Source: Rhodococcus maanshanensis NBRC 100610
GTDB lineage: Bacteria; Actinomycetota; Actinomycetes; Mycobacteriales; Mycobacteriaceae
Direction: 5' to 3'
DNA length: 57,487 nucleotides
NCBI RefSeq assembly: GCF_001894865.1
Contig: NZ_BCXA01000048.1
Coordinates: 1 to 57,487, forward strand
Shown here: positions 34,507 to 48,616 of the stretch, in pieces
Numbering within the stretch: the stretch's first letter is position 1
Layout of the letters: every line of letters begins with the position of its first letter
Made by a program: the position numbers and the translations under genes
The notes under the pieces: generated by a model
Databases searched by the model: none
Told to the model about the DNA's origin: nothing
Seen by the model: the letters and a program-made list of their open reading frames with translations, nothing else

Positions 34507-34916
34507 CAGCGCATCCTCACAAACGTCGTGTAGTGATCACCGGTGTACCAGGCCGAACCGTCACTACCGGTGACGATGCGCTGCGCGTCCCTCGGTTTTC
34601 CGCGCTGCTTCGGGTTCACGTCCCACTCGCGATAGCTGACGGGGCGACCCGAGGCGTCCGCGGTCGGTAGCTGCCGCTCCCTGTTACCGAAGCGTTCGCC
34701 GCCCTTGGTACCCGGAGCCCCTGCCGAGTCCGGCCAGGTGCCGTCGTCGATCGCCCGCAGGGTCGCCACGGCTGCCGCGGGGACACCGGGTGGCGCGTCG
34801 GAGCCGGGCGCGTCGCCGCCGCGCGTCAGCAGCAACCCCGCCACGACGGCGACGAGCACCAGGACGGCCGCCGCGATGACGCTGCGGGACCGTGCGGACA
34901 GCGATCTAGTGGACAT
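34506..34916 (-). CDS. Barnase-like ribonuclease with N-terminal membrane anchor or signal
   Basis: A 136-aa guanyl-type ribonuclease. Residues 12-31 are hydrophobic (signal or anchor). The catalytic domain ends in the exact barnase pattern: E97 in SYREWDVN, R113 in AQRIVTGSDG, H128 in YTGDHYTTFVRMR, equivalent to barnase Glu73, Arg87 and His102. It should be exported and active outside the cell, with barstar protecting the cytoplasm. It overlaps the end of the MMPL gene by 11 bases and barstar by 1. Confidence 0.88.
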   Translation of the reverse strand: MSTRSLSARSRSVIAAAVLVLVAVVAGLLLTRGGDAPGSDAPPGVPAAAVATLRAIDDGTWPDSAGAPGTKGGERFGNRERQLPTADASGRPVSYREWDVNPKQRGKPRDAQRIVTGSDGSAWYTGDHYTTFVRMR

Positions 34917-37023
34917 TGACCCGCTCCCTCAGCCGGACCATCGACGGCGGCGCCCACCAGTTGGCCTCGCCCATCAGCTTCACCAGCGCGGGCACCAGCA
35001 GCATCCGGACCACGGTGGCGTCGATGATCAGCGCGACGATCATCCCGACCCCGATGAATCGCATGACGGACAGGTCGGAAAGGGTGAACGCGCCGGTCAC
35101 CAGGATCAACAGGGTCGCGGCCGCGGTGACCACCCGCCCGGTCTTGGCCGCGCCGATGCGCACGGCCTCCTCGGTGCTTGCGCCGTCCCGCCTGGCCTCG
35201 ACCATCCGCGAGATCAGGAACACCTCGTAGTCGGTGGAGAGGCCGAACACCATCGCGATGATCAGCACGACCATCCCCGAGATCAACGGGCCAGGGGTGA
35301 CGTTCAGCAACCCCGTCAGGTGCCCGTCGTAGAAGATCCAGGTGAGGATGCCGAAGGTCGCGCCAAGGCTCAGCGCGGCCATCAGCACCGCCTTGATCGG
35401 CAGCACGATCGACCCGAACGCGAAGAACATCAGCACCAGCGTCGCGATCACCATCACCGCGATCATCACCGGCAGATAGTGCAGGACCGAGTTCACGCTG
35501 TCGACGGACAACGCGGTGATCCCGCCCAGGAGCAATTCGGTGCCTGCGGGCGCCTCGATCCCGTCGAGCCTGCGGACGGTGTCGACCGCGGCGACCGACC
35601 GGTCCGGGTCCTCGAGCACCGCGCGGATCGCGACCATGCCGTCGGCGGTGCCGAGGGTGATCGCCTGCTGGACGCCATCGGTCGCGCCGACCGCCCTGCT
35701 CACCTCGGCGACCGCGGCGTCGCCGGGCGGTGCACCGTCCTCGCCGCGCACCACGACGGTGGCGCCGCTGCTCGCGATCGGGAACTGCGCGGTGAGCTGT
35801 TCCACCGTCGTGCGCGTCTCGTTGCCCGGCGGCAGCGCGGTGTGGTCCACATCGCCGAACCGAGTCCCCAAGAGCGGCAAGGTCAACAGCAGCAGCCCGG
35901 CCACGATGGTGACGGCGATGACGACCGGCCTGCGCATCACGGCGGTCGCGAGTGCGCCCCAGAAGCGTTGCGCTCGAGCCTCACCCCGCTCGAATGCCCC
36001 GCGGCGCCAGGTCAGCGCGTCGATCCGCGGGCCGAGGACGGCGAGCAGCGCGGGCAGCGCCGTCAACGAGAGCGCCGCGGCAAGCGCGACCGCGGCCATC
36101 GCGCCGAACCCGAGCGACTTGAGCATCTGCTGCGGGAACACCAGGGTGCCCGCGAACGCGCACAGCAGCAGCACCGCGGAGAACGCGACAGTACGGCCCG
36201 CGGAGGCCATCGTCCGGGTGACCGCCTCGTCGGTGTCCGCCCCTGCGGCGAGCTCCTCGCGGTACCGGCTCACGATGAAGAGTCCGTAGTCGATCGCCAT
36301 GCCGAGCCCGAGCAGCGAGGCGATGTTCACCGAAAACACGCTGACCTCGAGGAACATCGACAACAGGCGCAGCGCGGCCAGCGCGCCGAGCATCGAGAGC
36401 GCGCCGATCGCGACCGGGATCGCCGCTCCGACCAGCCCGCCGAAGACCAGCACCAGCACCAGCAGGGTGACCGGCAGCGAGACCATCTCCGCGACCACCA
36501 GGTCGCGCTTGGATTCCTTGTTGACCTCGTCCGCGATCGCGCTGAACCCGGACAGCTCGGTGGACACCCCCGGCACGGTCAGCTGCGGTTCGAGTTCCGT
36601 GAACGACGCGATCCGCTCGCTCTCGCTCCCCTCCACGAAAACCACTGCCAGCGCCGTGGATCCGTCGCCACTGCGCAACAACGACCGGATCGGGCCCGTC
36701 GCGCCCCAGTAGTCCTCGATGGGCTCGGCGAGCAGGCCCCGATCGACCTCCGCGAGGCGAGCCGAGACCGCGGGCCCGATGTCGTCGACGGTCTTGCCGT
36801 CGGGGGCACGGTAGATCGCGATGATGTCCGGGCTGCGGATCCCGAAATGCTCGGCCAGCAGCTCGTCGACGAGCGCGGCTTCGCTGGACGGATCGATGTC
36901 ACCGCCCTGGCTGAGCCGGTCCAGCACACCGGACCCCCACAGCCCCCCGAGGAGCATGGCGCCGACCACGACCGTCAGCACGGCCCAACGGCGCCCCAGC
37001 ACGAACATTGTCCACCGCGTCAC
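34906..37023 (-). CDS. MMPL/RND-family transporter
   Basis: A 705-aa membrane protein with the duplicated RND layout: an N-terminal helix, a large extracytoplasmic loop (about 35-170), a five-helix block containing LLGLGMAIDYGLFIVSRYREEL near 230, a second loop, and a five-helix block with VFGLSTDYEVFLISRMVEARRDG near 590. This GLGxDY signature marks proton-driven lipid or siderophore-lipid exporters of actinobacteria (MmpL). The substrate is unknown. First gene of a three-gene operon with the RNase and barstar. Confidence 0.9.
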   Translation of the reverse strand: MTRWTMFVLGRRWAVLTVVVGAMLLGGLWGSGVLDRLSQGGDIDPSSEAALVDELLAEHFGIRSPDIIAIYRAPDGKTVDDIGPAVSARLAEVDRGLLAEPIEDYWGATGPIRSLLRSGDGSTALAVVFVEGSESERIASFTELEPQLTVPGVSTELSGFSAIADEVNKESKRDLVVAEMVSLPVTLLVLVLVFGGLVGAAIPVAIGALSMLGALAALRLLSMFLEVSVFSVNIASLLGLGMAIDYGLFIVSRYREELAAGADTDEAVTRTMASAGRTVAFSAVLLLCAFAGTLVFPQQMLKSLGFGAMAAVALAAALSLTALPALLAVLGPRIDALTWRRGAFERGEARAQRFWGALATAVMRRPVVIAVTIVAGLLLLTLPLLGTRFGDVDHTALPPGNETRTTVEQLTAQFPIASSGATVVVRGEDGAPPGDAAVAEVSRAVGATDGVQQAITLGTADGMVAIRAVLEDPDRSVAAVDTVRRLDGIEAPAGTELLLGGITALSVDSVNSVLHYLPVMIAVMVIATLVLMFFAFGSIVLPIKAVLMAALSLGATFGILTWIFYDGHLTGLLNVTPGPLISGMVVLIIAMVFGLSTDYEVFLISRMVEARRDGASTEEAVRIGAAKTGRVVTAAATLLILVTGAFTLSDLSVMRFIGVGMIVALIIDATVVRMLLVPALVKLMGEANWWAPPSMVRLRERVNVH

Positions 37024-37046: not shown

Positions 37047-37856
37047 CTAGCGATACTGGACGGTGACGGGTGCGTGGTCCGACCACCGCAGGTCGTAGGA
37101 CGCGGCCCGCTCGACGACGGCCTGCTTCGCCCGCTCAGCGAGCACGGGCGTGGAGACCTGGTAGTCGATCCGCCAGCCCGAGTCGTTGTCGAATGCCTTG
37201 CCGCGGTAGGACCACCAGGTGTAGGGCCCCTCCAGGTCCGGGTGCAGCCGGCGCATCACGTCGACCCAGCCGAGCTCGCCGAACACCGAACCCATCCACT
37301 CACGCTCGTTCGGCAGGAAGCCGGAGTTCTTCTTGTTCCCCTTGTGGTTCTTCAGGTCCAGCTCGGTGTGCGCGATGTTCCAGTCGCCGCACACCACCAC
37401 GTGCCGGTCCGCCCGCTCGGCCGCCGCTGCGGTCGCGGCCAGATACGGCCCGAAGGATCCGAGGAACCGTTCCTTCTCCGCCTGCCGCTCGGTCTCCACC
37501 TCGCCGGACGGGAGGTACAGGCTGGCGACCGTGAGGTCGTCGAAGTCCGCCTCGATGTACCGCCCGGCCTCCGCGAACTCCTCGTCCCCGTGCCCGATGC
37601 GGACCGCGTCCGCAGGCCTGCGCGAGAGAATCGCCACCCCGTTGCGACCCTTGGCCGACGGCTGCGCGGAGGCCAGGTGCCAGCCCGCCTCGAGCGCGGC
37701 GGCCAGGGTCGTGGTCAGCTGCTTGTCGTCGGCGCGGGTCTCCTGCAGGCAGATGACGTCCGCCTCGGTGGCCTCGATCCACTCCAGCATGCCTTTCTTG
37801 GCTGCGGCGCGGATCCCGTTGACGTTGACGGTGGTGATGATGTGCGGCACGCCCAC
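37047..37856 (-). CDS. xthA: Exodeoxyribonuclease III (AP endonuclease)
   Basis: A 269-aa endonuclease/exonuclease/phosphatase-fold DNA repair enzyme. NVNGIRAAAKKGMLEWIE near 11, DVICLQETRAD near 34 (metal Glu), VVCGDWNIAHTELDLKN near 153 (catalytic Asp/Asn), and the C-terminal WRIDYQVST and SDHAPVTV (catalytic His) are all visible. It cleaves at abasic sites and trims 3' ends. GTG start. Confidence 0.93.
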   Translation of the reverse strand: MGVPHIITTVNVNGIRAAAKKGMLEWIEATEADVICLQETRADDKQLTTTLAAALEAGWHLASAQPSAKGRNGVAILSRRPADAVRIGHGDEEFAEAGRYIEADFDDLTVASLYLPSGEVETERQAEKERFLGSFGPYLAATAAAAERADRHVVVCGDWNIAHTELDLKNHKGNKKNSGFLPNEREWMGSVFGELGWVDVMRRLHPDLEGPYTWWSYRGKAFDNDSGWRIDYQVSTPVLAERAKQAVVERAASYDLRWSDHAPVTVQYR

Positions 37857-37896
37857 ACGCTAGCGATCCGACGGTGAAATAGCGATGCGCGGCCAG

Positions 37897-37902
37897 TACG
37901 CT
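37897..37902 (+). promoter_or_regulatory. -10 box (TACGCT) for a leaderless mRNA
   Basis: TACGCT fits TANNNT and is followed by six bases and then the ATG at 37909. No Shine-Dalgarno is seen. Leaderless initiation is inferred. Confidence 0.45.
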
Positions 37903-37908
37903 GCGTTC

Positions 37909-38445
37909 ATGGTCGCAGCGGCGTCGCCGGTCAAGCGACGGAACCCCGCACTCATCGTCGTGGCCGCGATCGGGATGTTCCTGGTGACCATCGCGGGCCT
38001 CGCCGCCTACTTCCTCTGGCCGAGAGGCGATCGCCTCGGCGAGATGGATCTCCGCGCAGCGTCACCCACCCTCGCCGTCGACCTCGCGGCGGGCGACGAA
38101 CTGAACTTCCGCCTGGACGTGACGGTGGGCACGGCCGGCGGCTACCCGAACAGCTCGAGCGGTCGGAGCAACGCCGTGCACGACGAACTCGAGGCTTCGA
38201 AGCTCACCGTCACCCTTTCTCGGGTCGACGGCCCCGGCGACTCCACCACGTGCGGCGCCTACGACGGCAAGGCCACAACGGGTTCGAGCAGTTCCAGCGA
38301 AGTCGAGAGCTCTGGGCTCCCGCTCCGCTGCACCCTTGTGGCCGAGACGCCCGGTCGACACACGCTCACGGCTCGCGTCGAATGGGTGCCCGAGGACGTC
38401 CGCGAGGCCACGCTCGAGGTGCGGCGAGTCCGATCGGGGGATTGA
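37909..38445 (+). CDS. Hypothetical membrane-anchored protein
   Basis: A 178-aa protein with one hydrophobic segment near the N-terminus (ALIVVAAIGMFLVTIAGLAAYFLW, about 14-37) and an extracytoplasmic beta-rich domain carrying two cysteines (TTCGAYDGK and PLRCTLVAE), likely a disulfide. No family is recognised. It is convergent with lstD-like and divergent from xthA. Confidence 0.6.
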   Translation: MVAAASPVKRRNPALIVVAAIGMFLVTIAGLAAYFLWPRGDRLGEMDLRAASPTLAVDLAAGDELNFRLDVTVGTAGGYPNSSSGRSNAVHDELEASKLTVTLSRVDGPGDSTTCGAYDGKATTGSSSSSEVESSGLPLRCTLVAETPGRHTLTARVEWVPEDVREATLEVRRVRSGD

Positions 38446-38491
38446 ACGGCCCCGCCCTGCCGTCCACACGCTCGGTTCACGGACGGAGCGC

Positions 38492-39532
38492 TCAGCGCAG
38501 CGGCCGCGCCAGCTCCGCGAGGCCGCCCTGCTCGTCCACCCAGGCCTTGAAGGCGGCCAGCCCCTCGTCCCGGCCCACCATCGGCAGGTAGCCGAGATCG
38601 CGCCTGGCCGCGCCGGTGTCGAAGGTCGCGCTGCGCGTCATCAGCGCGATCACGTACCGCGACAGCGGCGGCGACCAGCGCTTCGCGACGTAGGGCACCC
38701 GCCAGATCTGCTCCGCGACCGCCACAACAGCGGCCAGTACCCGGGGGTCGGGTCTACGGCTCGGCGGGGCGAACCCGAACATCCGCGACACCACCCCGAC
38801 GAACTCCCACACGTTCGTGGTCTCGGCGTCGGCGATGTAATACGGCCTGCCCCCGACCTGGTCCGAGCTCGCGGCCCGCACGCACGCGTCGACGATGTTG
38901 TCGACGTGGCAGAGCGAGGCGTACACGTCCTTGCCGCCGGAGATGTCCGGCAGGGAGCCCTCGGACGCCTTCGCGAGCAGCCGGACGATCGGACCGGACC
39001 GGTCGCCCGCACCCCAGATCGCCCGTGGCCGTAGCGCACAGGTGATCAGGTCGGTGCCGTTCGCCTCCAGCACGAGCCGCTCGGCGGCGGCCTTGGTCTC
39101 CGAGTACAGGTTGAGGTACCTGCTCGGGTACGGGATCGTTTCGTCGACGTCGATCTGGTCGCCGCCGTCGTACTCCATCAACGCGCTCGGGCTGGAGATG
39201 AACACGAAGCGCGACACCCCGTTTCGGCGGGACGCCTCCAGCAGGTCCGCGGTCGCTCGCACGTTCTCGTCCCAGAACTGTTCGCGGACACCGCGTTCGT
39301 CCACCCTTGCGGCGCTGTGGAACACCACGTCCACTCCCCGCGTCGCCTCGACGAGGGAGTCACGGTCGGTGAGGTCGCCGTAGACGAGCGTCAACTTCGA
39401 GGTGTCGCCGAGATCGGTGAGGTTGCTGCTGCGGCGCACCAGCACGGAGACGTCCATCTCGCCGTCCCCGACCAGTCGACGGGCGAGCGCGCCACCGAGG
39501 AATCCGCTCGCACCGGTCACCAGTGCCCTCAC
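38492..39532 (-). CDS. lstD: 3-beta-HSD/OleD-like reductase of the beta-lactone operon
   Basis: A 346-aa NAD(P)-dependent short-chain reductase of the extended 3-beta-hydroxysteroid dehydrogenase/OleD type. The Rossmann motif is VTGASGFLGG near 5-14, and the catalytic pair is Y143 and K147 (NLYSETKAAAERL) with SSPSA near 113. In the lipstatin and olefin pathways this enzyme reduces the 2-alkyl-3-keto acid to the 3-hydroxy acid before lactone closure. GTG 39532 lies in the end of the upstream small gene (overlap 4). Last gene of the operon. Confidence 0.82.
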   Translation of the reverse strand: MRALVTGASGFLGGALARRLVGDGEMDVSVLVRRSSNLTDLGDTSKLTLVYGDLTDRDSLVEATRGVDVVFHSAARVDERGVREQFWDENVRATADLLEASRRNGVSRFVFISSPSALMEYDGGDQIDVDETIPYPSRYLNLYSETKAAAERLVLEANGTDLITCALRPRAIWGAGDRSGPIVRLLAKASEGSLPDISGGKDVYASLCHVDNIVDACVRAASSDQVGGRPYYIADAETTNVWEFVGVVSRMFGFAPPSRRPDPRVLAAVVAVAEQIWRVPYVAKRWSPPLSRYVIALMTRSATFDTGAARRDLGYLPMVGRDEGLAAFKAWVDEQGGLAELARPLR

Positions 39533-39780
39533 TGGGTCCGCCACCAGGTCGCACCGAGCAGCATCGTCATCGCGGCGATCTTCACATCCGAATGCCCCCG
39601 TGCGCGGCCTTCCTTCAGCGCGACCGGAATCTGGGCGGCGTGCGCGCCGACGCTGAGCACCACGTCGATCCACCACAGCGCCCGCGCGACACGGTTGCCG
39701 GAGGGCCGGATGAGCCCGGCCACCAGGTAGATCCATCCCAGTACCGGGATGGCACGCAGCAGCATGACCTTCGTACTCAT
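39529..39780 (-). CDS. Small membrane protein within the beta-lactone operon (DUF1145-like)
   Basis: An 83-aa protein with two or three hydrophobic stretches: AIPVLGWIYLVAGLIRPSG near 9 and ALWWIDVVLSVGAHAAQIPVAL near 33, then KIAAMTMLLGATWW. The arrangement resembles DUF1145/YhhL small membrane proteins, but this is from memory. It overlaps lstC by 4 bases upstream and lstD by 4 downstream, so it is tightly coupled to the pathway. It has no counterpart in the lipstatin lstA-F set as I remember it. Confidence 0.7.
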   Translation of the reverse strand: MSTKVMLLRAIPVLGWIYLVAGLIRPSGNRVARALWWIDVVLSVGAHAAQIPVALKEGRARGHSDVKIAAMTMLLGATWWRTQ

Positions 39781-41471
39781 CGTTCCGCCTTCGCCAGTTG
39801 CGATGCCGCCCACACCGTCAGTTTCTCGCGCCCGATCTTCGCGTTGTGCCGGATGTCGACCGGGAAACCGGGATGGAAGAGGAAGTCGTGGATCCGCTCC
39901 GTGGTGTGGGCCTGCGCTCCGAGCTCGCGCAGTTCCTGCTCGATCCGGGCCCGTTCGCTCTTGCGGACCCCCGGCATCAGCTCGACGCAGAGCACCGGGC
40001 GGGTGTCGGACTCGCCTCGCACGCCGACCAGCGCGGTCCGGAACACCTCGGGAACGGTGTTGAAGATCTGCTCGCACTGGACGGTGAACAGTTCGCCCTC
40101 CGCGGTGCGGATCCGCTGACTCTTGCGCCCGCAGAACCAGATCCGGCCGCCTTCGTCGATCCAGCCCAGGTCGCCGGTCCGGTGCCAGATCCGGTCGCCG
40201 TCCCTGATCTTGCCGAGCGCGTTCGCCTCCTCCGGCCAGGCGTAGCTGGTGCTCACATTCGGCCCGGCCACCACGATCTCGCCGATCCCGCCCGCGGCCG
40301 CCTCGTCGGACCTGGTCGGTATCGGGTCGTCGGTGATGCCGACGACCCTCGCCTCGAGGCCGAGCGCCGGTCGTCCGATACACGTTCCCGCCCCGGCGTG
40401 GGCGCGGGCGACGAACTCGCCGAGCAGCTCGCGCGATTCGATCGCGGACATCGGCAGCGCCTCCGTCGACCCGTATCCGGCGGTCACCTCGGCCTCGGGG
40501 GGCAGGATGGTGCGCAGCGCCGCGATGGCGTGGTCCGGTACCGGCGCACCGCCGGAGAAGATGGACCGCACGGACGGCAGCCGCACGTCGTGCGCCTGCG
40601 CGTGCCGCACCAGCGGCACCAGCACGGCGGGCGAGGCGAACATCGTCCGGATGTCGAACCGGTGGATCGCGTCGACCACGTGCGCGGGATCCGTCGAGCC
40701 CACCTCCCCCGGCACGATCGGCGGCAGCACGCAGCGGGAGCCGAGCATCAGGTCGAGCACCCCGAAGATCGGCAGCGTGATCAGGGATGTCTCAGGCGGC
40801 ACCCGCTTGCGGGCGTCGTCGACCTGGTCCAGCATCGCGGCGAGATTGCCATGGGTGAGATTGACGGCCTTGGCCGGTCCGGTACTGCCGGTGGTGAAGG
40901 CGATCATCATCACCTCGTCGGCAGGCGCCTCCTGACTCTCGACCACCGGCCGGTCCGGCGTCCGGCCCCAGGCACGAAGGGAGTGGCCGCCCCACAGCTT
41001 GCGCCCGACGGTGACCTTGACGCCGACCGTCGCGAACGACGAACGGAACACCAGCCGCAGCAGGTGCGCCTTCGAGATGCCGATGAAGGCCTGCGGGGAA
41101 ACGGATTTCAGGCAGGTGAGCATCGGACGCAGACCCATGCCCGGATCGATCACGACGGGCACCGCCGCCACCTTCAGCAAGCCGATCATGATGGCGTAGA
41201 ACTCGGGCCCCGGGGTGACCAGCAGCAGTGTCCGCACCCCGCGCCGGATCCCGATCGCCTCGAACCGCTGGGCGAGCAGATCGGACCAGTCGTCGAGCTC
41301 CCGATAGGTCAGCCGCCCGTACGTCGGGACTCCCGCCTCGCCCTTACCGTCCGGATGGATCACCGCCTCCAGATCCGGATGCGCCCGCGCCATCGCCCTG
41401 ATCCGTTCGACCGATCCGCAGTGCGCCGAGGGACGGGCTGGCACCGCAGTCGTGATCGTCGCCCTGCTCAC
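39777..41471 (-). CDS. lstC: OleC/LstC-like beta-lactone synthetase (adenylate-forming)
   Basis: A 564-aa ANL-superfamily enzyme. The ATP loop is FTTGSTGPAKAVNLTHG near 192-208, GYGSTEALP near 327 and TGDLGWIDEGG near 430 are adenylation motifs. The C-terminal FLFHPGFPVDIRHNAKIGREKL block (two adjacent stretches) is typical of OleC, which converts 2-alkyl-3-hydroxy acids to beta-lactones rather than CoA thioesters. With no OleB gene nearby the lactone should be kept. ATG overlaps the lstB stop. Confidence 0.85.
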   Translation of the reverse strand: MSRATITTAVPARPSAHCGSVERIRAMARAHPDLEAVIHPDGKGEAGVPTYGRLTYRELDDWSDLLAQRFEAIGIRRGVRTLLLVTPGPEFYAIMIGLLKVAAVPVVIDPGMGLRPMLTCLKSVSPQAFIGISKAHLLRLVFRSSFATVGVKVTVGRKLWGGHSLRAWGRTPDRPVVESQEAPADEVMMIAFTTGSTGPAKAVNLTHGNLAAMLDQVDDARKRVPPETSLITLPIFGVLDLMLGSRCVLPPIVPGEVGSTDPAHVVDAIHRFDIRTMFASPAVLVPLVRHAQAHDVRLPSVRSIFSGGAPVPDHAIAALRTILPPEAEVTAGYGSTEALPMSAIESRELLGEFVARAHAGAGTCIGRPALGLEARVVGITDDPIPTRSDEAAAGGIGEIVVAGPNVSTSYAWPEEANALGKIRDGDRIWHRTGDLGWIDEGGRIWFCGRKSQRIRTAEGELFTVQCEQIFNTVPEVFRTALVGVRGESDTRPVLCVELMPGVRKSERARIEQELRELGAQAHTTERIHDFLFHPGFPVDIRHNAKIGREKLTVWAASQLAKAER

Positions 41472-42370
41472 GCCGCCGGTGCCAGCCGGTACACGGTGGC
41501 GGCAGCGCTCGGTCCTGCGCCCGCGGCCACGAACAGCACGGTGTCGTAGCCGGCCAGGATCGCCTCGTCGACCTGGTGATACGCGGCCGTCAGCGCGGCG
41601 GTGTGCGCGTCGCCCTCCACCGCACCGCTACCGATCACCGCCTCCGGAGCGATGCCGAGCCGCGCGGCCAGCGCGGCCGGGAACCCCGGGGTCGGCCGCG
41701 AGCTGATCAGGGCGGCCCGAGACAGGTCCAGCCCGCCCTCGTGCGCTCCGATCGCCTTGCCCGCCGCGACACCCGCAACCTCGAGCAGACGCTCCTCGAA
41801 TCCGTCCTCGCGCTCCACGGTCACGAGCGAGCGGCCGTGTACGCCCATCTCCGCGGTGTTGGCGAACCCCCTCGTCGCCGGGGTCCCGTCCAGCTCCGCC
41901 ACGTGGACGGGACCGAATCCCGATGGGGTGTCGGTCTTCTCGAGGAGCATCGCCGCCCCCGCCGTGACGAACGGGAAGTCCGCGGCGGGCCTGCGTCGCT
42001 GGAGCGAGGGGTGCGTGTCCCCGGAGACGACGAGAACGTACTGCGCACTGTCGGTTTCGAGCAGGGCGGTGGCCACCTGTACCGCGTTGAGCACACCACA
42101 GGCCCCGTTCATCAGGTCGAACGAGAACGACCTGTTCGAGCCCTCCGGATACTCGAGGCCGATTCCCGCCTCCCGCTGGATCAGCGCCGCGATGGCGGGC
42201 TCGAACAGGTTCGAGTCGCGGTAGACGCCGGTGTTGATGAGCACGTCCACCTGCTCGGGCTCGACGCCTGCACTGCGCATGGCGCCGCGCGCCGCGCGAG
42301 CCGAATGCTCGATCGCGCTCGTCGTCGCCGTGGCCACGCTCATCCCGGTTGACTTGATCGAGATACCCAT
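41468..42370 (-). CDS. lstB: OleA/LstB-like ketosynthase, degenerate partner subunit
   Basis: A 300-aa thiolase-fold protein of the KAS III/OleA type. E57 (SNLFEPAIAAL) corresponds to the Glu that OleA donates across the dimer. The nucleophile region reads FDLMNGACGVLNA, with the Cys displaced by one position relative to the partner's SNACAG. The His and Asn of the triad are absent (LISSRPTPGF and GSGAVEGDAHTA). It should therefore act as a non-catalytic partner of LstA that helps bind or deprotonate the second acyl chain. GGAGG lies 10 bases before the ATG. Confidence 0.78.
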   Translation of the reverse strand: MGISIKSTGMSVATATTSAIEHSARAARGAMRSAGVEPEQVDVLINTGVYRDSNLFEPAIAALIQREAGIGLEYPEGSNRSFSFDLMNGACGVLNAVQVATALLETDSAQYVLVVSGDTHPSLQRRRPAADFPFVTAGAAMLLEKTDTPSGFGPVHVAELDGTPATRGFANTAEMGVHGRSLVTVEREDGFEERLLEVAGVAAGKAIGAHEGGLDLSRAALISSRPTPGFPAALAARLGIAPEAVIGSGAVEGDAHTAALTAAYHQVDEAILAGYDTVLFVAAGAGPSAAATVYRLAPAA

Positions 42371-42375
42371 GTTGC

Positions 42376-43425
42376 TCAGACCTCCAGGGACGTGATCGTG
42401 GCGGACACGTAGCCGGTGACGATGCCGGATGCCGCAGGAACCATCAGGATCTTCGACCCCTTCGGGACCGCCTTGTCCTTCAGGTGGTCGTGCAGCACGA
42501 TGAAATGCGAAGTGCTGGAAGTATTGCCGTACTTCTCCACCACGTTGAGCGCAGGCGGCATCGGGGTGCCGAACTCCTTCTCGCCGAGCGCGTTCATGTA
42601 GACCACGGCCGAGGCGCCGAACTGATGGTGGATGACGAAATCGAACTCCTCGTCGGCGAAGGTCTGGCCGCGGGCCGCCAGGAACTCCCGCTGCGCGTTC
42701 GTCCACAGCAGGAACCGTGATTCGTTGTGCATCTTGCGGTTGTCGGTGTACAGCGCGATGCCAGGCGACTGGTCACTCGGCATGCCCATGCACAGGTCGG
42801 AGTACTCCGACGCCGTCATCAGCTCGATGTAGTCGATCTTGTCGGCGTCGTCGACGGATCGGTCCATGATCACGGCCGCACCCGAATCACCAACGGACAG
42901 CGAGGCGAACTGCAGGTCGTACTTCTCCGAGATCTCCCGCACCGCGGTCTCCGAGATCGGCGTGATGTGCTCGCCGCTCACGACCATCCCGTTGCGGACC
43001 GCACCGGAGCGGATCATCCGGTCGAGCACGTAGACGCCACTGAGCATCCCCGCGCACGCGTTGGACAGATCGAAATGGATGGCGCCCTCGGTGCCGAGCT
43101 CCTTACCGAGCATCGAAGCGAAGGACGGCTCCAGGTACATGAAGTCCCTGTCCTTGCTCCGCGAGATCGAGGTCGAGATGATCACATCGAGATCGCCCGC
43201 CTCGTAGCTCGAGCGGGACAGCGCATCACGGGCGGCGTTGCACGCCAGCGTGAACGAATCCTCGTAGTTGTCCGCGCTCGAGTCGTACACCCGGCGGTCC
43301 ACCACCCCGGTGATCGCCTCGAGATCGAAACTCGGCGGCACCGCGAGCTTGGCGAGCAGGTCCTTCGTGCTGAGCACCGCGGACGGGAGGTACGCGCCTA
43401 TCGATTCGAACCTCGACTTGGTCAT
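42376..43425 (-). CDS. lstA: OleA/LstA-like Claisen condensation ketosynthase
   Basis: A 349-aa KAS III-type enzyme expected to join two fatty acyl thioesters head to head. The intact triad is C124 (DLSNACAGML), H267 (VIHHQFGAS) and N301 (KYGNTSSTSHF). E99 (MYLEPSFASM) matches the cross-dimer Glu of OleA. The ATG has AGAGGA upstream. The order lstA then lstB on the mRNA and the 5-base gap fit 1:1 heterodimer production. It is preceded by 61 bases without a gene after lstF. Confidence 0.85.
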   Translation of the reverse strand: MTKSRFESIGAYLPSAVLSTKDLLAKLAVPPSFDLEAITGVVDRRVYDSSADNYEDSFTLACNAARDALSRSSYEAGDLDVIISTSISRSKDRDFMYLEPSFASMLGKELGTEGAIHFDLSNACAGMLSGVYVLDRMIRSGAVRNGMVVSGEHITPISETAVREISEKYDLQFASLSVGDSGAAVIMDRSVDDADKIDYIELMTASEYSDLCMGMPSDQSPGIALYTDNRKMHNESRFLLWTNAQREFLAARGQTFADEEFDFVIHHQFGASAVVYMNALGEKEFGTPMPPALNVVEKYGNTSSTSHFIVLHDHLKDKAVPKGSKILMVPAASGIVTGYVSATITSLEV

Positions 43426-43486
43426 CTTGGATCCTCTTGGGAGTCGGTAGATCTGGCTGGTGGTTCGGCATTGTCTGGTTGGAGCT

Positions 43487-44203
43487 TCACATCAGTCCGG
43501 CGGCCTCGAGATCCGGCGCTGCGCCGCCTGCCGCCACGGCCGCGATCGCCGGGTAGCGAGGAGCGAAGACCCCGAGCGCGGTCGCCCGCTCGAAGTTCGC
43601 GTTGCCGCGATGCCCCCGCAGCTCCCGGATGCTCGCCGCACCGTAGTAGCCGCCGGGCACAACGGCCGCGGGCGGTCCGGACGGTTCCGGCCCGGTCATC
43701 ACCGCGTGCAGGCTCCGCTCGAACAGCTCGTGGCAGGCCCGCAATCCGTTCATCATGACATCCTGGAAGCGATCGTCGGGCGCGATCGCGAACCGCTCGA
43801 CATCGACCACCGCTCCGGTGTCGATGCCCGAGTCGACCCGGTGCAGCGTCGCCGCGTACTCGTCGCGCCCCTGGAGGATCGCGTGCACGATCGCGGCGGC
43901 GGGCAGCCCACGGAACTCCGGCAGCGGGCCGTTGTGGATGTTGTAGATCCGCAGGTCCGAGTCCACGAACGCGGGCCCGAAGATCATCGGGTTGTTGATC
44001 GACCACACCACCGAGTCGGTGCAGGCATCGGCGACCGTTGCGACCTCCGCATCGAGGTCCGTGGTCTCCAGGTGCGCGAGTGCCTCGAGTCCCGCGGGCG
44101 CCGCGTCGCCGGGCCCGGTGCACACCAGGTCAACCGTGAAATCCGATGCGGACGCGAATCGCGCGGCGCGCCAAAGCAATGCGCCGCTTCCCACCAGGAT
44201 CAC
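43487..44203 (-). CDS. lstF: LstF-like formyltransferase
   Basis: A 238-aa formyl_trans_N-fold protein. YNIHNGPLPEFRGLP near 87-101 gives catalytic N88 and H90, and RVDSGIDTGAVV near 122-133 gives D128, the same Asn-His-Asp set as methionyl-tRNA formyltransferase. There is no tRNA-binding C-terminal domain, fitting a small-molecule formyltransferase that uses 10-formyl-tetrahydrofolate. In lipstatin the leucine amine is formylated. GTG overlaps the NRPS stop (GTGA). Confidence 0.82.
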   Translation of the reverse strand: MILVGSGALLWRAARFASASDFTVDLVCTGPGDAAPAGLEALAHLETTDLDAEVATVADACTDSVVWSINNPMIFGPAFVDSDLRIYNIHNGPLPEFRGLPAAAIVHAILQGRDEYAATLHRVDSGIDTGAVVDVERFAIAPDDRFQDVMMNGLRACHELFERSLHAVMTGPEPSGPPAAVVPGGYYGAASIRELRGHRGNANFERATALGVFAPRYPAIAAVAAGGAAPDLEAAGLM

Positions 44204-47200
44204 CCGAGCTCTCCCGTCCTCTTCGCATGGACTGCGGCGGCGCATACCCTGCCGAGGGTGAGCTGGTGCACCAACTCCTCGAGCTCGGCGACGAACGCGG
44301 CTTCGCCCGCGCGTCCGACCACCGTGCGCGAGACCTGCGAGAGCATCTCCACCGACGCCAGCGAGTCCCCACCGAGGGCGAAGAAATCCGAATCGGCGCG
44401 CAGGGTGCTCACCTCGACCACGAGGACCTTCGCCCAGATAGCGGCGATCTGGTCCTCCGTCCGCCGGTCGGACTCCGCCGATCCCGGATCGTTCGCCGTG
44501 TCGATCCCCCGCTCCTGGACGTCCGCCTCGGCGGCGCTCAGTGCCGCGCTGTCGAGCTTTCCGTTGGCGGTCAGGGGAATCTCGTCGACGATGTGGATCT
44601 CGGCCGGGATCATGTACGCGGGCACCTTCTGCGCCAGGAAGTCCCGGAGTTGCTGCGCCATCTGGTCGCACCCTTGGCTCCGCTCCTGTCCCTGCGGCGC
44701 ACCCGTCTCGGCGGCGCGCACCACGTAGGCGGCCAGGACGTTGTCGCCGCGCTCCGCGCGCCGCACCGCCGCCACCGCGGCCCTGCCGACCAGGGGATGC
44801 TGTTCGATGGCGGCCTGCACCTCGCCGGGCTCCACGCGATTGCCCCTGATCTTCACCTGACTGTCGACGCGACCGGCGAACTCGAGTGCACCGTCGGGAC
44901 GTCGGCGGGCGAGATCACCTGTCCGGTAGCACCGTCCGCCCGTTGACAGGGTGACGAAGCGTTCGGCGGTGACGTCAGGGCGGTTCAGGTATCCGCGGGC
45001 CACCTGCGGGCCGCCGAAGTACAGCTCACCGATCTCGCCGTCGGGCACCGGCAGGCGATCCGGGTCGAGCAGATGGACCGTGGTGTCTGCGGCCGGGCCA
45101 CCGATCGGTACCGGCTGGGGTGCGGCCGAGGGCTCGTCGTCGAGTACGAGAGCGGTACAGACGATCGACATCTCCGCGGGCCCGTAGCTGTTGAGCAGCC
45201 GGCAATCCGGGCCGAACAGCTCGCGGGCACGCGCGGCCAGCGGCCCGTGCAGCGCCTCACCACCGATGCTGACCGCTCGCATCCCCACCGGCCGCAGATC
45301 CAGCCGGACCATCACCTCGAGCAGGCTCGGCGTCACCATCATCGTGTTCACCGTGGGACCCTCGAGCATCTCGGACAAGACCAGGTGATTGATCTCCTCC
45401 GGAACCAGGACCACCGCACCGCCGCTGAGCAGCGGGAGCAGCAGCGCCGCGCACGCCATGTCCGCCGCCTGCGTGTGATAGTGCGCGTAGCGGGTCTCGG
45501 GCCCGAGCCGGTACCAGTCGGTGGCCGAGCGCATCAGGTTCACGATGCCCCGATGTTCGACCTGGACGCCCTTGGGCCGTCCGGTCGAACCCGAGGTGTA
45601 GGTGACGTAGACCAGGTCGTCGGGGGTGGCGAGGTCCGGCGCCTTGTCGGCGCCGGAATGCGGCAGGTCGTCGACCACCAGGACATCGGTGTCGCCGAGC
45701 GCGGCTCGTCCCTTCGACGCCCGCTCCGTCACGCAGTGGCGCACACCGGAATCCGCGAGAATCCCCAGAATCCGCTCGTCCGGGTGCTTGGGGTCGAGCG
45801 CGAGAAAAGCCGCGCCCGCCTTGAGGATTCCCAGATATCCCACCACCGCGTCGAGCGACCGCCGAGCCAGCACCGCGACGACGTCACCGCGACGGACCCC
45901 ACGGCCGCGTAGTTCCGCGGCCACCACGTCGGCACGAGCGTCGAGTTCCGCATAGCTGAGCTGACCGTCGTGCCCGATCGCCGCCACCGCGTCCGGGGCG
46001 GCCAGGACCAGGTCGCCGAAGATGCTCGTCACCGTTCGCCCCTGCCCTGGCCCCCGCGACGCGATCGGCCGCGGCTGCGCCTGCGCTCCGAGTGCTGCGG
46101 CGATATCGTCCAGCAGTCGCTCGAGAAGAGACGCGATCCCCGCACCGTTGCGGCAGGAGACCACGAGTTCGGTTCGTCCGCGGGCCTCCAGCACCGCGAT
46201 CGAGAGCGGCACCATGCCCGTGTGGACCGGCAGGCCCCACACCTCGGTGGCCGCGAATCCGGGGAAGCTCAACTCGTCGAGATCGACTGTCCCCGTGTGG
46301 GACACGATCGCCGACACCAGATTTCCCCCGGTACGGGCGCCGATGGACATGCCGGCGCGCAGGATGGCCCGCGCCATCCACACCGGCATCTGCTGCAGCC
46401 CACCATTGTTCATCTCACCGAGCTCTCGGGACTCCACCATCCCGCGCAGCAGTTGGGCATGGATGCGCGACCACCCGTCCCCTGGCGTCGCGTCGAGGAA
46501 CAGCGGTAGCGCCAGGTTGGCCGTCGACCGCAGGTCCTTGTCGTGCCGTCGCAGGTCCACGGGGACCATGATCCGGGTCTTGCCCCCGACCGCAGCCGTG
46601 ATCAGCTCGGCGATCCGGGCGACCACGGCGGGCGAGGTTCCCTCCACGGTGCGCCTGCGCCAGAGGAAGTCCGACTCGCCGGGGGCCGGGCGGGCCCGCC
46701 CGAACGGCGAACGCGCGGTGGGGAGCAGCGTGGTCGGCTTGCCGTCGATCCCGAGCGACTCGACGAGGCTGTGGTCGGCAATCGCGTCCCGCGCTCCGAT
46801 CGTCCGTTCGCCACGCAGCAGGCGGAACACCTCGGCCGCCCAGAGAGCCAGGCCTTTCCCATCCATCACGCCATGAAAAGCCCTCAGCACCAGCGTGTTC
46901 CGCTCACTTCCCAGCAACAGGACCTCGCAGGTGGGTCCACGCTCCGGATCGAGCGGACGGCTCAGCATCGGATGGTCGTCGAGCGGGGCATCCACCAACG
47001 AGTGCTCCGCGGCCACCACCACCGGGGGCGCGATGCCGCGGTCCACCCAGCGCTCGCCACGCCGGACGAGCCGGGCACCGGGGCAGGATTCGGACGCGCC
47101 TGCCACTGCCACCGCGAGGTCCCGCTCGTCGATCGAGCCCGTCCCCTGGATCACCAACTGGATGGCGAACGGCGGGGCCAACGTCTGCATCGCCAGATAC

Positions 47201-47253
47201 AGACGTTCGGTTGGTGAGATCGGTCGTTCGAAAAGGGGCACAACGGAAGACAA
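44200..47253 (-). CDS. lstE: NRPS with condensation-like, adenylation and carrier domains (LstE-like)
   Basis: A 1017-aa single module. Residues 1-395 are a condensation/acyltransferase-type domain with HGVMDG (127-132) for the HxxxDG motif. Residues 405-900 are an adenylation domain: A3 TYTSGSTGRPKG near 551, A5 NSYGPAE near 688, A7 YRTGD near 776, A10 LTANGK near 894. Residues 930-1000 are a carrier domain with S964 (FFALGGDSL). There is no thioesterase. Hand alignment to GrsA gives pocket residues D-M-A-M-S-G-S-I-V-K, Asp235 kept, so an alpha-amino acid is likely; I cannot name it. The C domain would esterify the aminoacyl group to the lactone's hydroxyl. TTG 47253 is chosen because AGGAG lies 5 bases upstream. 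Confidence 0.85.
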   Translation of the reverse strand: MSSVVPLFERPISPTERLYLAMQTLAPPFAIQLVIQGTGSIDERDLAVAVAGASESCPGARLVRRGERWVDRGIAPPVVVAAEHSLVDAPLDDHPMLSRPLDPERGPTCEVLLLGSERNTLVLRAFHGVMDGKGLALWAAEVFRLLRGERTIGARDAIADHSLVESLGIDGKPTTLLPTARSPFGRARPAPGESDFLWRRRTVEGTSPAVVARIAELITAAVGGKTRIMVPVDLRRHDKDLRSTANLALPLFLDATPGDGWSRIHAQLLRGMVESRELGEMNNGGLQQMPVWMARAILRAGMSIGARTGGNLVSAIVSHTGTVDLDELSFPGFAATEVWGLPVHTGMVPLSIAVLEARGRTELVVSCRNGAGIASLLERLLDDIAAALGAQAQPRPIASRGPGQGRTVTSIFGDLVLAAPDAVAAIGHDGQLSYAELDARADVVAAELRGRGVRRGDVVAVLARRSLDAVVGYLGILKAGAAFLALDPKHPDERILGILADSGVRHCVTERASKGRAALGDTDVLVVDDLPHSGADKAPDLATPDDLVYVTYTSGSTGRPKGVQVEHRGIVNLMRSATDWYRLGPETRYAHYHTQAADMACAALLLPLLSGGAVVLVPEEINHLVLSEMLEGPTVNTMMVTPSLLEVMVRLDLRPVGMRAVSIGGEALHGPLAARARELFGPDCRLLNSYGPAEMSIVCTALVLDDEPSAAPQPVPIGGPAADTTVHLLDPDRLPVPDGEIGELYFGGPQVARGYLNRPDVTAERFVTLSTGGRCYRTGDLARRRPDGALEFAGRVDSQVKIRGNRVEPGEVQAAIEQHPLVGRAAVAAVRRAERGDNVLAAYVVRAAETGAPQGQERSQGCDQMAQQLRDFLAQKVPAYMIPAEIHIVDEIPLTANGKLDSAALSAAEADVQERGIDTANDPGSAESDRRTEDQIAAIWAKVLVVEVSTLRADSDFFALGGDSLASVEMLSQVSRTVVGRAGEAAFVAELEELVHQLTLGRVCAAAVHAKRTGELG

Positions 47254-47281
47254 CGTCGCTCCTAGCCAGGGGGGTGCCGGA

Positions 47282-47287
47282 ATAGTA
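47282..47287 (-). promoter_or_regulatory. Candidate -10 element (TACTAT) of the beta-lactone operon
   Basis: The minus strand carries TACTAT about 28 bases before the TTG start, in the only gap between the icd terminator and the operon. No good -35 hexamer is visible, so the promoter may need an activator. Weak evidence. Confidence 0.3.
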
Positions 47288-47340
47288 TCGGTTCGACGGA
47301 GACTCTGCATGAGGTTGCCAGAGTCGGCCCCCGACAAACG

Positions 47341-47380
47341 AAAAGTGGGACCCGCCCCGACCTGGGGCTGGTCCCACTTT
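47341..47380 (-). terminator. Hairpin terminator after icd
   Basis: AAAGTGGGACC (47342-47352) pairs with GGTCCCACTTT (47370-47380); GCCCC/GGGGC forms an inner stem. On the minus strand it is followed by TTTTCGTTTGT, so it fits as the icd terminator, insulating the beta-lactone operon from icd. Confidence 0.8.
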
Positions 47381-47398
47381 CCGGCTGTGCGCCCTCCG

Positions 47399-48616
47399 TT
47401 ACCGGGTGGCCTTCTGCATGTTCTCATCGAGCGCACCGAGGAACTCCTCGGTGGTGAGGTAGCCCTGGTCGCCACCGACGAGCAACGCCAGGTCCTTGGT
47501 CATCTGACCACCCTCGACGGTCTTGATGACGACGTCCTCGAGCTGCTGCGCGAACGCGATCACCTCGGGGGTGTTGTCCAGCTTGCCGCGGTGCTCGAGA
47601 CCCCGGGTCCACGCGAAGATGGAGGCGATGGGGTTGGTCGAGGTGGGCTTGCCCTGCTGGTGCTGGCGGTAGTGCCGGGTGACGGTGCCGTGCGCGGCCT
47701 CCGCCTCACAGGTCCTTCCGTCCGGCGTCAGCAGCACCGACGTCATCAGGCCGAGCGAGCCGAAGCCCTGCGCGACGGTGTCCGACTGGACGTCGCCGTC
47801 GTAGTTCTTGCACGCCCAGACGTAGCCGCCCTCCCACTTGAGCGCGGAGGCGACCATGTCGTCGATGAGGCGGTGCTCGTAGGTCAGGCCCGCGGCGTCG
47901 AACTCGGACTTGAACTCGGTCTCGTAGACGTTCTGGAAGATGTCCTTGAACGCGCCGTCGTAGGCCTTGAGGATGGTGTTCTTCGTGGAGAGGTACACCG
48001 GGTAGTTCTGCTGCAGGCCGTAGTTGAGCGAGGCCCGCGCGAAGTCCTCGATGGACTTGGTGAAGTTGTACTGCCCCTGGACGATGCCGCCGCCCTCGGG
48101 GAAGTTCACCAGCTCGTGCTCGATCGGCTCGCTGCCGTCCTCGGGCGTGTAGGTGATCATCACCTTGCCGGGACCGGGGACCTTGAAGTCGGTGGCGCGG
48201 TACTGGTCGCCGAACGCGTGACGGCCGATGATGATCGGCTTGGTCCAGCCCGGAACCAGTCGCGGGACGTTCGAGATGATGATCGGCGCGCGGAAGATCG
48301 TGCCGCCGAGGATGTTGCGGATGGTGCCGTTGGGCGACCGCCACATCTTCTTGAGGCCGAACTCCTCGACGCGGGCCTCGTCCGGCGTGATAGTGGCGCA
48401 CTTGACGCCGACGCCGTGCTTCTTGATCGCGTTCGCGGCGTCGATCGTGACCTGGTCATCGGTCTTGTCGCGGTACTCGATACCGAGGTCGTAGTACTCG
48501 AGATTCACATCCAGGTACGGATGGATCAGTTTGTCCTTGATGAACTGCCAGATAATGCGGGTCATCTCATCGCCGTCGAGTTCGACGACGGTGCCTTCAA
48601 CCTTGATCTTGGACAT
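47399..48616 (-). CDS. icd: NADP-dependent isocitrate dehydrogenase (dimeric type)
   Basis: A 405-aa TCA-cycle enzyme making 2-oxoglutarate and [24 protein letters not shown] opens the eukaryote-like Icd1 class. [19 protein letters not shown] near 96-114 carries the isocitrate Ser/Asn/Arg residues, [18 protein letters not shown] near 270-287 the metal Asp, and [19 protein letters not shown] near 307-325 the NADP site. GGAGG precedes the ATG. Corresponds to M. tuberculosis Icd1 (Rv3339c). Confidence 0.96.

Follow-up and report, generated by a model that had tools for sequence, protein, structure and literature searches.

The question raised by this locus is whether a cluster of seven genes in Rhodococcus maanshanensis NBRC 100610 encodes a pathway of the type that yields lipstatin, the source of orlistat, and how it relates to the clusters of other actinomycetes. 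The cluster lies in a 57,487-nucleotide stretch of DNA, hereafter the window, which belongs to a 5.67-Mb assembly of 96 contigs. An initial annotation of the window had described a seven-gene minus-strand operon of lipstatin type in a Nocardiaceae chromosome, and both parts of this description are borne out here: the genes occupy exactly the stated positions, 38492–47253, and are intact, with all frames open and no internal stops, and the lst-type activities were all identified by homology, along with the conserved catalytic residues. The nearest named relative, R. oryzae NEAU-CX67, has the same seven genes in the identical order, E-F-A-B-C-M-D, at the same site, and its proteins are 91–99% identical, indicating that the arrangement is not due to chance.

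The genes are tightly packed. Four of the six junctions (E/F, B/C, C/M and M/D) are overlaps of 4 bases and the gap between A and B is 5 bases, so that the earlier description of junctions that overlap by 4 bases or lie a few bases apart holds for five of the six; F and A are separated by 61 bases. The operon is flanked by icd upstream and by xth and then an MmpL transporter gene downstream. Between icd and the operon is a hairpin ending in TTTT (-47 kcal/mol, z -5.2), and none of 200 shuffled sequences was equally stable. A pattern scan over positions 37700–47800 did not list this hairpin and found no sigma-70-like promoter. A plus-strand open reading frame of 186 aa (37885–38445) is present between D and xth; it has no match in R. 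oryzae, in which about 30 bases separate D from xth.

Table 1. Features of the operon region in the window, and sets of related loci referred to in the text
Feature	Position	Strand	Details
E, LstE-like NRPS module C-A-T	44200-47253	-	1017 aa; TTG start, AGGAG just upstream
E, condensation (C) domain	about 46066-47238	-	HGVMDG motif
E, adenylation (A) domain	44986-45999	-	
E, carrier (T) domain	about 44323-44454	-	
F, LstF-like N-formyltransferase	43487-44203	-	238 aa; Pfam Formyl_trans_N 7e-11
A, LstA-like KAS-III, catalytic subunit	42376-43425	-	349 aa; C124, H267, N301
B, LstB-like KAS-III, partner subunit	41468-42370	-	300 aa; E57; start set at 42370
C, OleC/LstC-like beta-lactone synthetase	39777-41471	-	564 aa; NCBIfam
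M, helical, probably membrane-associated protein linked to LstB	39529-39780	-	83 aa
D, OleD/LstD-like 2-alkyl-3-oxoalkanoate reductase	38492-39532	-	346 aa; NCBIfam oxyalk_red_OleD
MmpL transporter of the lst-linked group, probable exporter (xth lies between it and the operon)	34906-37023	-	Pfam MMPL
Probable terminator between icd and the operon: hairpin with T-run	47325-47395	-	Folding versus shuffles
Canonical full Rhodococcus operons			R. tukisamuensis, R. triatomae BKS 15-14, R. sp. RD6.2, R. spongiicola, R. xishaensis, R. qingshengii IEGM 1359, Rhodococcus MAG (L024)
Nocardia loci with a lone condensation domain			L025-L032, L035, L038-L040, L042-L045, L047-L052, L054-L057, L065, L090

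A and B form an adjacent KAS-III pair in which a Cys/His/Asn triad lies in A and a glutamate in B, as in the lst operon of Streptomyces toxytricini. According to PMC12141560, C128, H271 and N305 are essential in LstA and E60 in LstB; the residues of the operon proteins stand at a constant offset from these, 4 for A and 3 for B. The cysteine is present in all 79 rows of the alignment of A homologues and the histidine and asparagine in 78 each (one gap each), and the glutamate is found in 78 of the 79 rows for B, again with one gap. The two subunits share 23.1% identity over 281 positions, and 23% is reported for LstA and LstB. F possesses the N-x-H...D residues N88, H90, D124 and D128, conserved in 23 of 23 rows, and matches sugar N-formyltransferases in the PDB (8e-11), and Y143 and K147 of D are conserved in all 73 rows. 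The condensation domain of E is supported at the level of the fold. NRPS genes are abundant elsewhere in the host genome: giant NRPS frames, the longest of about 9,000 codons, are numerous on contigs C3, C5, C16, C25, C31, C36 and C41, and the genome has 122 AMP-binding matches in all.

The operon thus combines OleC- and OleD-type genes with a C-A-T NRPS module and a formyltransferase, the gene kinds that also make up the S. toxytricini operon. The nocardiolactone pathway (nltABCD; see also PMC7413640) shares A, B, C and D and has no counterpart of M, E or F, all of which are present here, so that the operon is not a four-gene cluster free of NRPS and formyltransferase. The chemistry of the OleA-, OleC- and OleD-type enzymes is also shared with oleABCD; unlike the latter, the operon has two KAS-III subunits, an NRPS and a formyltransferase, and, as the initial annotation had stated, it has no oleB, since no alpha/beta-hydrolase was found in a search of the operon's genes.

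What was observed directly is which genes are present, that their frames are intact, that catalytic residues are conserved, which folds are predicted and which genes occur together; the reactions, the product and the parts played by M and MmpL are all inferred from this, as follows. The reading that we consider likely is a lipstatin-type operon in which A, B, C and D supply the lactone route, E and F the decoration, M the anchoring and MmpL the export. A and B would pair as a heterodimeric ketosynthase for the head-to-head joining of two fatty acyl-CoAs with no loss of CO2, and in such an LstAB-type synthase, Cys, His and Asn would come from A and Glu from B. The resulting alpha-branched beta-keto acid would be reduced by D, and the beta-hydroxy acid would be adenylated by C and then closed to the beta-lactone. 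E would select an amino acid and charge its carrier domain with it, and the condensation domain of E would then esterify the amino acid to a hydroxyl on one chain; F would formylate the amino group with formyl-tetrahydrofolate. M may hold the ketosynthase at the membrane, and MmpL may export the product. The predicted product is a long-chain beta-lactone that bears an N-formyl-aminoacyl ester group and would inhibit serine hydrolases.

The operon was compared with 78 named loci, a sample obtained from one genome scan with two peptide patterns. Both E and F are present in 22 of these loci, in Rhodococcus, Streptomyces and Kitasatospora, and F follows E in 21 of the 22. Full sets with E and F are present in eight other Rhodococcus records, one of which is a MAG, and Nocardia clusters have been labelled lipstatin-type: in PMC7413640, six clusters of a Nocardia survey first received this label from antiSMASH. 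The operon therefore does not stand alone in its lineage, for which the initial annotation had known of no described example. A described Rhodococcus lst operon was not found in the literature searched, which included the available texts of PMC5550956, PMC6941271, PMC11705897 and PMC7916644. In these texts, a keyword search of the Rhodococcus cluster survey PMC5550956 gave no match, PMC6941271 lists a betalactone cluster for R. rhodochrous, and PMC11705897 lists a betalactone cluster with 0% similarity in a table that is seemingly of its Rhodococcus, both with no gene detail.

Seven Rhodococcus records (one MAG; Table 1) have the canonical order, A-B-C-M-D-E-F, which also occurs in Streptomyces and Kitasatospora. 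The canonical Rhodococcus operons share all seven genes and a related adenylation pocket code with the operon of R. maanshanensis and differ in having MmpL directly after F. Compared with the lst operons of the Streptomyces relatives, the operon has E-F in front, another pocket and an MmpL nearby; against those Streptomyces and Kitasatospora loci that possess E and F, it shows identities of 56–60% for A, 37–44% for E and 42–49% for F. A quick tree built from A, B, C and D (67 rows) places R. maanshanensis, R. oryzae and R. spelaei together on a branch next to the other Rhodococcus and the Nocardia loci. R. spelaei C9-5 has its operon at the icd-xth site in the order E-A-B-C-M-D, with F missing, and retains an MFS gene of full length (412 aa) between icd and E. 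A single MFS gene occupies the icd-xth interval in R. tukisamuensis, R. triatomae and RD6.2, whose lst operons are located elsewhere. Since R. spelaei has the MFS gene followed by the operon, the operon was probably inserted beside the MFS gene, which was probably lost later in the line of R. maanshanensis and R. oryzae. The order E-F-A-B-C-M-D and the icd-xth site are derived and common to R. oryzae. These features, together with the MmpL gene past xth, the linkage of M to LstB and the different pocket, add to what the initial annotation contained.

The small protein M had been described as a membrane protein. The helical character is supported by a confident model (pLDDT 94.8), but the hydropathy is only moderate (best 19-residue mean 1.63), so that membrane attachment is no more than likely. 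M belongs to no Pfam family (the best over 50 members was E 0.018, in one member) and matches no fold in the PDB (best Foldseek E 5.9), and the available lipstatin section of PMC12141560 makes no mention of a small protein like it. M is present in 63 of the 78 LstB loci; the 15 without it include nine A-B-C-D loci and four in which A and B are accompanied by a distant ligase. A draw of 401 genomes from the family yielded 89 with LstB (E up to 1e-30) and 52 with M; all of the latter have LstB, and in all 52 the M gene lies 30–2272 bases downstream of an LstB gene on the same strand, within 160 bases in ten of them. Among 394 genomes drawn from the class, M was found in five, all with LstB, two of which were new relative to the family draw (M 1,725 and 1,767 bases after LstB). 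In the two draws together, M lies within 2.3 kb downstream of LstB in 54 of 54 M-bearing genomes, although the profile was built from lst loci and remote relatives elsewhere could have been missed.

M also accompanies LstB in a second kind of LstAB cluster. Three of the ten cases with M within 160 bases of LstB were read gene by gene. Two loci (L108:6176-11612 and L109:4574-10102) have the order A-B-M-D-glycosyltransferase-AMP ligase, and a third (L107:5281-10255) has A-B-M-glycosyltransferase-AMP ligase, with no D; by Pfam, the glycosyltransferases belong to family 2, and the AMP ligases are 25–27% identical to C. Four other loci (L061, L063, L066 and L067) resemble these clusters and have no M. 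Because M accompanies LstB even where C is replaced, we read it as a probable partner of the LstAB synthase.

The MmpL encoded near the operon is 54–60% identical to the MmpLs that follow lst operons in Rhodococcus and Nocardia and 97% identical to that of R. oryzae. MmpL is directly downstream in all seven canonical full Rhodococcus loci and in all 28 Nocardia loci with a lone condensation domain; R. spelaei has no lst-linked MmpL, and no MmpL was present in the stretches fetched for two relatives with full sets (L111 and L112). In a first tree of 50 rows, the operon-side MmpL joined the lst-linked group with weak support (84/53). In a second tree of 29 chosen rows, to which paralogues of six genomes were added, all 18 lst-linked MmpLs, the operon-side one included, fell on one side of a branch supported at 93/89 and recovered in 96% of 200 bootstrap trees. 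As a member of this lst-linked group, MmpL is the likely exporter of the product.

The alternative that survives best, although we consider it unlikely, is that MmpL and M are mere neighbours of the operon with no role in the pathway. MmpL stands one gene away across xth, the host genome encodes several MmpL paralogues, one of them 57% identical, and LstB often occurs without M (37 of the 89 LstB-bearing family genomes). However, the 57% paralogue belongs to a separate group that is present in all six genomes of the genus (support 100/99), although a constraint placing the operon-side and R. oryzae MmpLs with this paralogue was rejected only at the borderline (p-AU 0.053); M, for its part, is beside LstB in all 54 genomes in which it was detected.

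We give little weight to the possibility that A-D make a plain dialkyl beta-lactone of the nocardiolactone or olefin type while E and F serve another product or are dying. Clusters that would fit such a pathway exist: nine Nocardia loci consist of A-B-C-D alone, which fits the nltABCD (nocardiolactone) type. In addition, 28 of the 78 loci are Nocardia A-B-C-M-D followed by a lone condensation domain and then MmpL (Table 1). The lone-domain protein, of about 395 aa, has HGVMDG in 28 of 28 loci and is accompanied by no adenylation or carrier domain and no F; these loci nevertheless share A, B, C, M, D, the HGVMDG domain and MmpL with R. maanshanensis. In four of the 28, the B or C matches are in pieces, and four further loci at contig ends or broken (L034, L058 and L094, listed as having the C domain only, and L074, at a contig end) were left out of the count. 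Like these Nocardia loci, R. spelaei lacks F. Against a plain lactone, E and F of R. maanshanensis are intact, overlap by 4 bases and lie inside the operon, both genes accompany A-B-C-D in 22 of the 78 loci in three genera, and the nine A-B-C-D loci form a separate branch of the tree in which M is missing from all nine.

The adenylation pocket bears on the nature of the decoration, which in lipstatin is an N-formyl-leucyl ester. With the nine positions placed by hand on motifs, the code of E is DMAMSGSIV, which is common to R. oryzae and R. spelaei and matches no nameable specificity; the seven other Rhodococcus have DMAL(I/V)GS(I/V)(V/A). Streptomyces and its allies have DI(F/I)ALG.., DLM(G/S)QG.. 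or DLTK(V/I)GEIG, and DMAMSGSIV is unlike every Streptomyces or Kitasatospora code read. A text search of the literature for the codes gave no match. Because the pocket differs from those of all these relatives, the amino acid on the Rhodococcus product is probably another one than theirs, as far as the sequence permits this to be predicted. DLTK(V/I)GEIG is an Asn-like code. Two Streptomyces loci with this Asn-like code have a GNAT acetyltransferase in the position of F (L068:17178-17804 and L073:17451-18128), and an esterastin-like N-acetyl-asparaginyl product would need an acetyltransferase; the two loci are, from their sequences, candidate esterastin-type clusters. This pairing suggests that the pocket can be read in this way and that a different amino acid is used in Rhodococcus, although the match between code and GNAT is not strict, since a third locus (L083) has the same Asn-like code and yet carries F.

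Still less probable is that the lactone is esterified and the final product not formylated, or that F acts on another amine. R. spelaei keeps its NRPS (L023:5868-8846), with the same pocket code, and has no formyltransferase of the F group, and in the two Streptomyces loci the GNAT gene takes the position of F. These points are countered by the intact catalytic residues of F in all aligned rows and by its position after E in nearly all loci that have both. A general role of F as an NRPS formylase of the family was rejected as well: among 61 genomes, the sole strong match outside the genus (G015, 40%) lies in an NRPS locus that has no A, B or D.

The comparison of C and D with the Ole models came out differently for the two proteins. 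The best NCBIfam model for D is oxyalk_red_OleD (203.5 bits, cut-off 580). The top model for C is that of a broad family, PRK09274 'fatty acid CoA ligase family protein' (607.9 bits, above the cut-off of 478), followed by olefin beta-lactone synthetase models in second place (499.5 bits, E 1e-149, cut-off 900) and third place (409 bits); all olefin models score below their equivalog cut-offs for both proteins. The least likely of the alternatives, that the pathway yields no lactone, C being an acyl-CoA or acyl-AMP ligase, agrees with this top model and with the PDB matches listed for C, which are CoA ligases and adenylation domains with none named OleC, but it sits poorly with the scores of the two synthetase models, far above those of other ligases, and with the placement of C next to A, B and D, an order shared with the Streptomyces relatives.

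Operons of this type are numerous in the family; the present one is intact, has a derived gene order and position, and comes with a probable exporter and an additional conserved protein. Rhodococcus and Nocardia hold relatives of the lipstatin cluster with other pockets, other gene orders, another transporter and a small conserved protein. If LstAB needs M, M would be a missing component for reconstitution of the pathway, and MmpL offers a testable route of export in mycolate bacteria. More tentatively, mycolic-acid bacteria may run an eight-gene lipstatin pathway in which M, an undescribed small membrane protein that never occurs here without LstB, serves LstAB and transport of the lactone across the mycomembrane falls to an MmpL dedicated to it. 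The acyl decoration would then have diverged into at least three chemistries: a formylated aminoacyl group with a new amino acid in Rhodococcus, a group that lacks the formyl in R. spelaei and, in Nocardia, an acyl group transferred by the lone condensation domain. The lactone might act on the mycolate or lipid hydrolases of the producer itself or of its neighbours.

Viral contigs gave six pattern matches, none of which is an LstB relative. One contig labelled as a Myxococcales MAG (L098) carries homologues of the NRPS, A, B and M together with a distant C, which may reflect either transfer or a mislabelled bin.
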